NCBI GenBank assembly: GCA_022736555.1
Contig: DZCW01000006.1
Location: 1 to 40,314 of the forward strand
DNA length: 40,314 nucleotides
Origin: Candidatus Saccharimonas sp.
GTDB taxonomy: Bacteria > Patescibacteriota > Saccharimonadia > Saccharimonadales > Saccharimonadaceae
Direction of reading: 5' to 3'
A program made the position numbers and the translations under genes. Below the pieces are notes generated by a model. It did not search any database and was not told where the DNA came from. It saw nothing but the letters and a program-made list of their open reading frames with translations. Of the stretch, positions 12,915-17,861 are shown piece by piece. Positions within the stretch are counted from its first letter, which is position 1. Every line of letters begins with the position of its first letter.

Positions 12915-13513
12915 TTAGATGGGTCTTAGGAATAATAATTCCAATTATAGCCATTATTTTTGGTATTAGCATTTACTTGCAACCAGACGATTTGGCTAAA
13001 TGTGCCAAATCACCATCGAATATTACTAATTGTCAGGCGGTTGATGCAGTTGTGGCTATTAGCGGCGGCGATACGGCAGCCAGGGCAAAAGAGGCGATTA
13101 ACCTATACCAAAATGGCTGGGCAAAGTTCATAGTCTTTTCAGGGGCAGCTCAGGATAAAACTGGTCCCAGCAATGCCGCCGTTATGAAAGAAATCGCATT
13201 ATCAGAGGGTGTACTATCTGGCAATATTTTAATTGATGAATATTCCGAAAATACTAAACAAAATGCCGAAAATACTAAAACTATCTTTGATGAATATGAT
13301 ATCAAAAGTGTTATTTTGGTTACTTCTGGCTATCACCAACGTCGTGCCAATCTGGAATTTAGTAACCATAACAACGACGTCAAGATTATGAACCATCCAG
13401 AAAAAACTGACAAGGATTGGTCATTTTGGTGGTGGGTTACACCCTATGGTTGGTGGTTGGCGGTTTCTGAATTAGCCAAAATTATTTCTTTTTATGTTAT
13501 CGGTATCTTGTAA
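12911..13513 (+). CDS. DUF218 / YdcF-SanA-like membrane-anchored protein
   Basis: A 200-aa protein with one N-terminal membrane helix (WVLGIIIPIIAIIFGISIYL) and a DUF218 domain outside the membrane. The recognisable core is DAVVAISGGDTAARAKEAINLYQNG, KFIVFSGAA, the SENTKQNAENTK helix and VILVTSGYHQRRA. The family includes YdcF and SanA, linked to envelope integrity; biochemical function is not settled. It overlaps iscS by four bases and mnmA by one base (TAATG), so it is translated from the same message, although no direct link to sulfur transfer is known. The sandwiching between two sulfur-relay genes may simply be compaction. Confidence 0.88.
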   Translation: MIRWVLGIIIPIIAIIFGISIYLQPDDLAKCAKSPSNITNCQAVDAVVAISGGDTAARAKEAINLYQNGWAKFIVFSGAAQDKTGPSNAAVMKEIALSEGVLSGNILIDEYSENTKQNAENTKTIFDEYDIKSVILVTSGYHQRRANLEFSNHNNDVKIMNHPEKTDKDWSFWWWVTPYGWWLAVSELAKIISFYVIGIL

Positions 13514-14826
13514 TGAATAAAAAACCTAAAGTTTATGTCGGTATGAGCGGCGGTGTTGATTCGTCACTAACGGCGGCGTTATTGGTCGAGCAAGGTTATG
13601 ATGTAACCGGCGTATATATGAAGAACTGGACACAGGATCTACCCGGTATGAAATGTCCTTGGGCTGATGATCTGGCTGATGCTAAACGCGTGGCGGTGCA
13701 ACTAGGTATTGACTTCAAGGTCTTTGATTTCGAGAATGAGTACAGGCAAAAAGTCGTTGATTATATGATCGACGAATACAAAAATGGTCGCACGCCGAAC
13801 CCTGATATTATGTGCAATCAAGAGGTCAAGTTTAAACTATTTCTAGATACGGCGCTTGATGATGGGGTGGATATGATTGCTACGGGGCATTATGCGAGAG
13901 TTGAACATTACGATAACGATTCGTTTGCAATTACATCAGAACGGCTTCGCGCCGCGCCCATTAAGGGCCCTGGCGCCTTACTGAACTCGGGCTGCAGATG
14001 TTCCTCAAAGATAGGTTCTAATCTTTCGGCTGGCGATATACCGCAATCGAGCCGCTCGGTTACCGTTTCGAGTGACACCCTGGAACCCAAGTCTGAACTG
14101 GCGCCGGGGCCCAATTCAGACCTGGAGCGAAGCAGTACCATGAAAAATGGTGGCCGAAAAGGCGAACAAGAAAAAGGGATATTGTTGCGAGCGGTTGATG
14201 GTAATAAAGATCAGACTTATTTTCTATATCGTATTACTGGCGAAGCGCTAGGTAAAACTCTTTTTCCTATAGGTGAATTCACGAAACCCGAGGTGCGTAA
14301 AATGGCCGAGGATCGTGGACTGACTACTGCTGCCAAAAAAGATTCTCAGGGTATTTGTTTTGTTGGTCAAGTTGGCATTCGTGATTTTCTGAGTCTATAT
14401 GTTGATCAGCAGCCTGGCAAAATTATCGACAAGCAATCTGGTAAAGTTCTGGGTTATCACGAAGGGGCGATATTTTATACATTAGGGCAGCGCCACGGTT
14501 TGGATGTTGGTGGTGGGTTACCTTATTATGTCGTTGACAAAGACATGACGACAAACGAAGTCTATGTAACTACCAATCTAGATGATGGCGTTCTTTGGAA
14601 GAACGAAATTCGCTTAGGTAATATTCATTGGATCAATGAAGCGCCAATTGAAGGGTTATACCAAATTCGCGTTCGTCATCGTGCGCCACTTATTAGCGCC
14701 ATGCTTGTTTTTGATGATAGTGGGGTGTCGCTGAAGCCCGACGACTCTCAGAGAGCAATCGCTCCAGGCCAATCTGTTGTTATCTATGACGGCGATGTCT
14801 GCCTAGGTGGTGGAATTGTTATTTAG
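13513..14826 (+). CDS. mnmA: tRNA-specific 2-thiouridylase MnmA with an in-frame 66-residue insertion
   Basis: Adds sulfur to wobble U34 of tRNAs for Lys, Glu and Gln, using ATP and a persulfide from the desulfurase encoded upstream. Motifs: PP-loop VGMSGGVDSSL (9-19), NPDIMCNQEVKF with catalytic Cys101, ATGHYARV, NKDQTYFLYR, and DSQGICFVG with Cys282. The protein is 437 aa, about 65 longer than usual. The excess is residues about 143-208, lying between HYARVEHYDNDSFAI and GILLRAVDGNKDQ, where relatives have only a short loop. This insert is encoded exactly by the GC-rich palindrome at 13941-14136 and reads as Pro/Ser/Gly/Arg/Leu-rich low complexity with no stop. All catalytic residues are intact, so the enzyme is probably active. 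Confidence 0.95.
   Translation: MNKKPKVYVGMSGGVDSSLTAALLVEQGYDVTGVYMKNWTQDLPGMKCPWADDLADAKRVAVQLGIDFKVFDFENEYRQKVVDYMIDEYKNGRTPNPDIMCNQEVKFKLFLDTALDDGVDMIATGHYARVEHYDNDSFAITSERLRAAPIKGPGALLNSGCRCSSKIGSNLSAGDIPQSSRSVTVSSDTLEPKSELAPGPNSDLERSSTMKNGGRKGEQEKGILLRAVDGNKDQTYFLYRITGEALGKTLFPIGEFTKPEVRKMAEDRGLTTAAKKDSQGICFVGQVGIRDFLSLYVDQQPGKIIDKQSGKVLGYHEGAIFYTLGQRHGLDVGGGLPYYVVDKDMTTNEVYVTTNLDDGVLWKNEIRLGNIHWINEAPIEGLYQIRVRHRAPLISAMLVFDDSGVSLKPDDSQRAIAPGQSVVIYDGDVCLGGGIVI
13941..14136. repeat. 196-bp GC-rich palindrome inserted in frame in mnmA
   Basis: Outer arms: GCTTCGC (13944-13950) opposite GCGAAGC (14127-14133), with AC/GT pairs just outside. The arms run on with equal spacing to GGGCCC-T-GGCGCC (13965-13977) opposite its complement at 14100-14112. 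The centre is a stem of CGGCT-gg-CGAT (14027-14037) pairing with ATCG-AGCCG (14046-14054) around an 8-base loop. The symmetry axis of the arms (about 14038) and of the centre (about 14040) coincide, so the whole segment is one imperfect palindrome. It is visibly richer in G+C than the flanking gene, and is translated as residues about 143-208 of MnmA. Confidence 0.85.
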
Positions 14827-15971: not shown

Positions 15972-17861
15972 ATGAATGCTCAACAAATTCGAAACGAATA
16001 TCTGAAATTTTTTGAGGAACGCGGTCACGTGATTATTCCTAGTGCCAAATTGGTTCCACTAAATGATCCGACAACATTATTTACCGGTAGTGGCATGCAG
16101 TCGCTTTTACCATATCTACTAGGCGAATCGAACCCAAACGGTGTGCGACTGGCTGATAGTCAGACGTGTTTTCGATCTCAGGATATTGATGATATTGGCG
16201 ATAACCGCCATACGACCTTTTTTGAAATGTTGGGCAATTGGAGTTTGGGTGATTATTTCAAAGAGCAACAAATTCGTTGGTTTTTTGAATTTCTGACCGA
16301 AAAAGCCGGCCTCGATCCAAATCGAATTTATGTCACGGCTTTTATTGGTGATCCCGAACATGGAATCCCGCGTGATGACGAAGCTGCCAATATTTGGCAG
16401 AAAGTTTTTGGTGAAAAAGGTATTGAAGCCAAGATTGTCGAAATCGGTAGTCAGTCTGATGGCGATAAACGTGGCGTAAATCCTGGCGAGCGAATTTTCT
16501 TTTATGATGATCATGAAAACTGGTGGAGCCGTAATGGTGGGATTTCTAGCACTCCGATTGGTGATCCATGTGGTCCCGACAGCGAAGTCTTTTATGATTT
16601 TGGTGAGCAAAATCACGCCGAAGGTTTCGGTCTGGCTCATCCAGCAACCGATAGTGGCCGTTTTGTCGAGATTGGTAATCAGGTTTTTATGCAATATCGA
16701 CGAATGGATGATGGTAGTTTCGAGCCGCTTGCGAAACAAAATGTTGATTTCGGTGGTGGCCTGGAACGAATTGCGGCGGCTGCAATTGATAGTCCTGATG
16801 TCTTTAAGATTAGTATATTATGGCCGATTATTGAAAAACTACAAATGATAAGTGGCAAAAACTACGAAAGCCACACCGAAAGTATGCGTGTGATCGCCGA
16901 TCACCTGCGTGCCGCTACATTCCTAGCAGTGGATGGTGTTGTGCCGAGTAACAAAGAGCAAGGCTATGTTATGCGCCGACTATTACGCCGAGCAATTCGT
17001 TTCGCGTTTGATCTAGGCATCGAACAGAACTTTTTACAGGAAATCGTGCCGGTAATTGCTGATCTGTATGCTAATAATTACCCAGAAGTTAAAACAAAAC
17101 GTGATGAAGTTATTGCGATATTAGTAAAAGAGGAAAAGATATTTCGACAAACTCTAATAAAAGGTCTAAGGGAATTAAATAAATTCGCCGTTGGTGGTTT
17201 GACTGGCACGGAATTATTTACGCTTTACGATACCTATGGTTTTCCGGTCGAACTATCTACCGAGGAAGCTTTTAAGCAGAATATCACTTTGTCTGCTGAT
17301 TGGCGCGCTGAGTTTGATGCGAAAATGTTAGAGCAACGGTTACGTAGCCAAACTGCCACCAAAGGTGTATTCAAAGGCGGGCTAGAAGGCCAGGGCGATA
17401 TGCAAACTAAATACCATACCGCGGCGCATTTATTAGGTCAGGCTTTGCGTGACGTTTTAGGCGAAGATGTAGCGCAACGAGGCTGTAATATTAATGAGGA
17501 ACGAATTCGCTTTGACTTTTCTTGGAGTGAAAAAATGACCCCCGAGCAAATAAAACAAGTCGAGGATATCGTTAACGAGCAAATCGATGCCGATTTAAAG
17601 GTAGCTTATGCCGAATATCCAACCAAAGTTGCTTTTGAGGAAATGGGCGCTCATGGTGAGTTTAGTGATAAATACGGTGACAAAGTCAAAGTTTATTCAA
17701 TAAAGGCTGATGGCGTTAATAAGCCATTCAGCTTAGAAATATGTGGCGGGCCTCATGTCGGCCACACTAATGAATTAGCCGAAGGTGGCAAAAAATTCAA
17801 GATAACCAAAGAAGAATCTAGTTCAGCCGGTGTCCGTCGTATCAAAGCAGTCTTAGCCTAA
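15972..17861 (+). CDS. alaS: Alanyl-tRNA synthetase, short form without the C-terminal domain
   Basis: Charges tRNA-Ala and clears mischarged Ser/Gly-tRNA-Ala. The class II core is clear: TGSGMQSLLPYL, QTCFRSQDIDDIGDNRHTTFFEMLGNWSLGDYF (in pieces), and GGGLERIAAA. The editing domain is present, with zinc-site residues HTAAH (about 482-486) and CGGPHVGHT (about 590-597). The protein ends right after the editing domain (629 aa, against roughly 870 in typical bacteria), so the oligomerising/tRNA-binding C-Ala part is absent. The end KKFKITKEESSSAGVRRIKAVLA is a natural editing-domain finish followed by a normal TAA, so this is a compact form and not a broken gene. Confidence 0.95.
   Translation: MNAQQIRNEYLKFFEERGHVIIPSAKLVPLNDPTTLFTGSGMQSLLPYLLGESNPNGVRLADSQTCFRSQDIDDIGDNRHTTFFEMLGNWSLGDYFKEQQIRWFFEFLTEKAGLDPNRIYVTAFIGDPEHGIPRDDEAANIWQKVFGEKGIEAKIVEIGSQSDGDKRGVNPGERIFFYDDHENWWSRNGGISSTPIGDPCGPDSEVFYDFGEQNHAEGFGLAHPATDSGRFVEIGNQVFMQYRRMDDGSFEPLAKQNVDFGGGLERIAAAAIDSPDVFKISILWPIIEKLQMISGKNYESHTESMRVIADHLRAATFLAVDGVVPSNKEQGYVMRRLLRRAIRFAFDLGIEQNFLQEIVPVIADLYANNYPEVKTKRDEVIAILVKEEKIFRQTLIKGLRELNKFAVGGLTGTELFTLYDTYGFPVELSTEEAFKQNITLSADWRAEFDAKMLEQRLRSQTATKGVFKGGLEGQGDMQTKYHTAAHLLGQALRDVLGEDVAQRGCNINEERIRFDFSWSEKMTPEQIKQVEDIVNEQIDADLKVAYAEYPTKVAFEEMGAHGEFSDKYGDKVKVYSIKADGVNKPFSLEICGGPHVGHTNELAEGGKKFKITKEESSSAGVRRIKAVLA

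Follow-up and report, generated by a model that had tools for sequence, protein, structure and literature searches.

Palindromic, probably mobile elements inserted in frame in MnmA and other housekeeping proteins of Saccharibacteria

The mnmA gene of a Candidatus Saccharimonas genome contains, in frame, what is very probably a head-to-head pair of non-autonomous mobile palindromic elements, similar in behaviour to the Rickettsia palindromic elements (RPEs) yet independent of them. Saccharibacteria are tiny, probably parasitic bacteria. The gene lies in a 40,314-nucleotide stretch of contig DZCW01000006.1, referred to here as the window. The features of the window that define the insert are the following:

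13513..14826, + strand: mnmA, encoding the tRNA-specific 2-thiouridylase of 437 aa that hosts the insert (Pfam PF03054/PF20259/PF20258; PDB 2der)
13909..14175, + strand: sequence in excess of orthologues whose loop has 45 nt, amounting to about 89 codons (residues ~133-221; genus alignment)
13925..14016, + strand: L unit over the 93-position model, the full hairpin being ~14 nt longer per side (covariance-model match, E = 6.9e-20)
14061..14152, - strand: R unit, inverted second copy, the full hairpin spanning about 14047-14166 (covariance-model match, E = 6.2e-20)

The extra loop of MnmA is delimited by comparison with its orthologues. The E. coli enzyme (PDB 2der), itself devoid of the insert, aligns as two blocks flanking it, and the insert falls in the sequence alignment between the invariant residues Cys101 and Cys282. 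Between the motifs GHYARV and NKDQTYF, the loop measures 312 nt in the mnmA of the window (genome G000), 174-201 nt in relatives that have a single copy of the element and 45-57 nt in insert-free relatives (nine complete and three partial). A preliminary description of this DNA had estimated the excess at ~65 residues (143-208); set against the 45-57-nt loops of relatives, it amounts to about 89 (roughly 133-221). In an AlphaFold2 model made with 42 MnmA sequences, residues 152-217 have pLDDT values below 50 and the enzyme fold around them is confident. This stretch sits between strands 129-132 and 222-225, and the insert is predicted to form a disordered loop within the turn of a beta-hairpin. 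The peptide SERLRAAPIKGPGALLNSGCR, read from the open frame, is part of the predicted MnmA product.

The same description had reported a GC-rich imperfect inverted repeat at 13941-14136, in frame and stop-free inside MnmA between the two cysteines. Such a repeat is indeed present, with outer arms at 13941-13953 and 14124-14136, inside the open reading frame of the 437-aa MnmA (13513-14826). The region folds as RNA with z = -3.1 against dinucleotide-shuffled sequence and as DNA with z = -2.9, none of 200 shuffles being as good. Its interpretation as one symmetric palindrome has to be abandoned, since it is made of a single hairpin element present twice, as the mutually inverted copies L and R. 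BLAST of the region against its own genome returned the region itself and an 80%-identical copy of the left arm on another contig, while a search of 199 relatives returned many copies of single arms, mostly from the same genus. Alignment of these copies revealed that the left and right arms represent the same hairpin unit in inverted orientations; homology with solo copies identifies L and R each as such a unit. The R unit folds well alone and, over 93 nt, shares 91% identity with a copy within TopA of another genome (G024). The L unit of this mnmA, a degenerate copy, finds its better pairing partner in R. Its 3′ flank, TTCTAATCTTTCGGCTGGCG, is identical over 20 nt to that of the MnmA copy of G012, and this exact shared flank suggests that L was inherited and R added beside it.

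The units are imperfect hairpins that share a conserved core, GGCTTCGCGCCGGGTC ... GACTCGGGCTGCAGATG. From the outside inwards, the outer stem, which is variable, is followed by an internal-loop region and a CCGGGTC/GACTCGG stem, both conserved; the inner stem, again variable, then leads to the conserved tip GGGCCCCGGCGCC. The internal-loop region exists in an L-type form (GGCTTCGCG / CTGCAGAT) and an R-type form (TGCTTCGCT / TTCCAGG). The family was described by a covariance model with explicit structure, built on 55 copies and 93 positions; the paired structure, together with some weak conservation of sequence, continues for about 12 nt past it on both sides. Among 80 copies with flanks, the 5′ end TCGCCT occurs in 17 (1.0 expected) and the 3′ end GGCTCTA in 13 (0.2 expected), both at fixed distances. 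Together with the pairing beyond the model, these enriched ends point to a full element of ~115-120 nt. Four intergenic copies of G011 (L143, L144, L145 and L150) have ~45 nt in common on the 3′ side, past the hairpin (TTAGCTAGCGTAATTATGTAATACCAAACGACTCTT); this subfamily may therefore exceed the hairpin in length. None of the 4227 families of Rfam 15 matches the element, the two matches found being at chance level and located away from it.

The preliminary suggestion that the element might be multicopy was borne out by searches of the genome and its relatives. The 0.69-Mb genome of the window contains four units, two of them in MnmA and the others, both covariance-model matches, at these positions:

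G000:C1:124933-125025: copy in a Dus gene
G000:C6:18392-18483: copy in an RnhB-UPF0102 fusion, within its linker

Within the genus, the covariance model gives 69 matches in 19 of 28 genomes, with 1-8 per genome; congeners reach up to eight or more units. A sampling of the taxonomic family finds the element in 69 of 394 genomes, distributed over 21 of 61 genera, and copy number remains low (1-10 per genome, with 10 in G208). Among 380 genomes taken from the phylum as a sample, strong matches are confined to the host family, the sole outside match having E = 9e-4. Searches of phages and plasmids and a scan of viral contigs for the exact pattern recovered no element, and a phage or plasmid origin was rejected on this ground.

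The catalogue of 80 copies with flanks gives a view of the genes involved, a copy being counted as genic when it lies inside an ORF of 150 aa or more. Thirty-five copies lie inside open frames; five of the six possible frames are used, and both orientations occur. According to Pfam, the hosts are MnmA and TopA (seven species each), DnaX (four), AlaRS (three), RNA methyltransferases (three), LeuRS and Dus (two each), RnhB-UPF0102 (two, with the element in the linker) and CysS (one). For copies L007 and L016 the MnmA host was assigned by protein search instead of Pfam, and two element-bearing ORFs have no Pfam match. Many genic copies sit at loops and linkers of housekeeping proteins, and in multi-domain hosts the Pfam domains downstream of the insert are intact. 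In two species of genus g41, the element is found in TopA near residue ~385 in opposite orientations (L050 of G108 and L020 of G067), which suggests in-place inversion or independent insertion. The idea that the element is adapted to be stop-free in six frames is unsupported for its core, where open frames number 151 against 155 expected in ORF copies and 181 against 181 in intergenic copies; over 93 nt, open frames are somewhat more frequent in intergenic copies than in shuffled sequence (105 versus 78).

Comparison of orthologous sites provides the empty states. An element-free gene of this kind is present in the window itself:

15972..17861, + strand: alaS, alanyl-tRNA synthetase, 629 aa, empty-site orthologue (protein alignment)

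The element-bearing AlaRSs of G006, G015 and G108 have 662-676 aa versus 629 here, with an insert of ~36-41 residues. In MnmA, the element is missing from about half of the genus, and the alignment of orthologues proposed in the preliminary description shows it present, absent or reversed; the insertion is not common to all relatives. Even sister species differ, G003 having the element and G017 lacking it. In G002 the loop contains the element in the opposite orientation, implying independent insertion or inversion in place. On an MnmA tree computed without the loop, the state 'same-orientation element' changes at least four times on supported branches. Some of the MnmA copies could nevertheless derive from one old insertion followed by several losses instead of repeated gains.

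What is conserved in the insert is a palindrome and not a peptide. Orthologous inserts, compared in nine pairs, show 43/37/48 differences at codon positions 1/2/3, as opposed to 588/298/1990 in the other codons of these ORFs; this flat pattern disposes of conservation at the protein level, which the preliminary description had considered. In the family model, 33 of 39 stem pairs have changes on both sides, with up to 15 double changes per pair versus 3.5 expected, and 79.4% of cells pair versus 31-47% with slid partners. Comparison of orthologous sites gives 157 double changes that keep the pair versus 41 expected with shuffled partners. The codon-position and pairing tests draw on related copies and shared sequences, so that their counts are not independent events. 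Taken together, flat codon positions and paired stem changes indicate that the palindrome is kept as DNA or as a hairpin rather than as protein. G-U pairs are rare (25 of 715 outer-stem and 22 of 562 inner-stem pairs), and their scarcity in the variable stems fits Watson-Crick pairing of DNA better than an RNA structure. In g8, another genus of the family (L253-L268; G208, G219, G235 and G249), single copies have outer stems that are 18-34 bp long, nearly perfect and different at every locus, a sign that the arms change together quickly; either hairpin selection or template switching may be the cause. Some intergenic copies of g8 resemble insertions into pre-existing terminator-like palindromes.

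The MnmA loop also accommodates other hairpins. In the sister species G007 and G020, the loop that holds the element in G000 contains an unrelated hairpin of roughly 7-nt units, (GGAATAT)n / (CCAATAGCCAAATTC), one copy of which is the following:

G007:C13:87150-87242: heptad-arm hairpin copy L270

This heptad-arm family (loci L270, L271 and L296-L305) has 46 BLAST matches in G007, 26 in G020 and 12 in G004, and some of its other copies are also within long open frames. The presence of two unrelated hairpin families in the same loop designates it as a common landing or tolerance site. The MnmA loop of G019 contains a different and very stable hairpin (L090, -82.9 kcal/mol over 153 nt), and that of G009 another kind, which is single-copy.

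Several explanations can be weighed against these data. A conserved extra domain of MnmA, palindromic by chance, would account for an in-frame, stop-free insert and for the similar peptide SERLRA..KGPGAL in five congeners; it is scarcely credible given that the same DNA recurs in other genes, in other frames and between genes, that codon positions are flat and pLDDT low, and that half of the genus or so does without it. A functional RNA or regulatory hairpin, for instance a terminator or an mRNA-stability or processing signal conserved because the RNA works, would agree with the strong covariation of the stems and with the tendency of intergenic copies to lie between convergent genes (15 of 41 versus 19 of 105 background spacers). 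Such a role is improbable for an element that has no Rfam family, very few G-U pairs in its variable stems and no fixed position, being found in unrelated genes, five frames and both orientations, and whose distribution is patchy (19 of 28 congeners, 69 of 394 genomes in the family). Hairpins of the REP/RAYT type, mobilised by Y1 (HUH) tyrosine transposases and tagged with GTAG, come to mind because the element is a hairpin whose ends are enriched, 17 of 28 genomes have Y1_Tnp genes, and CTAC (GTAG on the other strand) occurs in the 3′ flank 23 times versus 9.7 expected, in a subset of copies. This explanation is unlikely, though perhaps a little less so than an RNA function: the element is 3-5 times as long as a REP, 5′ GTAG is not enriched (5 of 80 versus 8.3), 9 of 19 element-bearing genomes lack Y1, including this one and the eight-copy G004, 7 of 9 element-free genomes have it, and no element lies near any of 20 Y1 loci. 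RAYT/Y1 was rejected as the mobiliser, being neither correlated in presence with the element nor close to it.

More serious, if still doubtful, is the possibility of a transposase-free DNA hairpin whose arms are rewritten by template switching, with particular loops, chiefly that of MnmA, acting as insertion hot spots for at least two unrelated palindrome families in several genera. The locus-specific long outer stems are not explained by simple cut-and-paste. No transposase was found for the element, and the ORF maps beside and between paired copies, drawn for genomes that have 9-10 of them, reveal no evident autonomous version. Empty-site comparisons of AlaRS and MnmA, made by eye, showed no target-site duplication. 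The pair of mobile elements remains the favoured reading, and it agrees with the preliminary view of an independent family of protein-coding palindromes settling in permissive loops, which is upheld by multiple copies, varying occupancy of MnmA, unrelated host genes and the use of five frames. The unit would be moved in trans by some enzyme recognising the ends as well as the hairpin itself. Gene-breaking insertions would be lost, leaving as survivors the in-frame copies in permissive loops and the intergenic copies. In MnmA, the L unit would have come first and the R unit would then have landed beside it. The arms of the outer stem would be kept complementary by selection on the DNA hairpin or by template switches that copy one arm to the other. 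The insert would be translated, as the open frame suggests, into a disordered loop that MnmA tolerates, presumably with a neutral effect on the enzyme.

Comparable elements have been described in other bacteria. RPEs, reviewed in PMC10969869 and PMC3733652, form families of ~150 bp of which nearly half of the copies lie in ORFs, in frame (PMC10969869), and have CGTC at one end (PMC3733652). The present element shares with them a palindromic structure of ~100-150 bp, multiple copies dispersed in coding and noncoding DNA, a reduced-genome, host-dependent bacterium as carrier, frequent in-frame insertion in housekeeping genes with downstream domains kept, more than one family per lineage and no known dedicated transposase. 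It differs by its phylum (Saccharibacteria/Patescibacteria), its use of at least five frames and its locus-specific stem arms that change together. The CGTC tag is not enriched (8 of 80 5′ flanks versus 10.9 in shuffled sequence), and GACG in the 3′ flank occurs in 9 of 80 versus 8.6. Behaviour like that of RPEs without the CGTC tag and in another phylum makes the element RPE-like, by behaviour, and not an RPE. RPE-related elements also exist in Wolbachia. In-frame insertion of palindromic elements has so far been known mainly from Rickettsia, and a search of open-licence papers for palindromic elements in Saccharibacteria/Patescibacteria returned nothing relevant.

REP, REPIN and BIME sequences with their RAYT transposases are GTAG-tagged (PMC3733652, PMC2817692). 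Like the element, they are hairpins, sometimes in inverted pairs as in this MnmA, and some of their copies lie within genes, those for replication included; unlike it, REPs measure 20-40 nt against ~120 nt here, and neither 5′ GTAG enrichment nor Y1 association is found in the element. MITEs, such as Correia elements and ERIC, are likewise short, non-autonomous, structured, dispersed and occasionally fused to ORFs. The Saccharibacteria element, in contrast, is one long imperfect hairpin and not a body between terminal repeats, and neither a related IS, on ORF maps, nor a target-site duplication, in the by-eye empty-site comparison, was found.

The family calls for caution in annotation, as extra loops of Saccharibacteria enzymes may be DNA parasites instead of domains. 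It also offers dozens of natural insertions in essential enzymes together with their empty-site orthologues. With this material, it becomes testable whether the inserts alter enzyme function and whether the palindrome persists because mobility is selected for or because mutation, through template switching, restores it. An independent family of in-frame palindromes in a second phylum of reduced-genome, host-dependent bacteria suggests a recurrent outcome of tiny, gene-dense genomes, in which, with almost no intergenic DNA available, selfish repeats may persist by being translatable.
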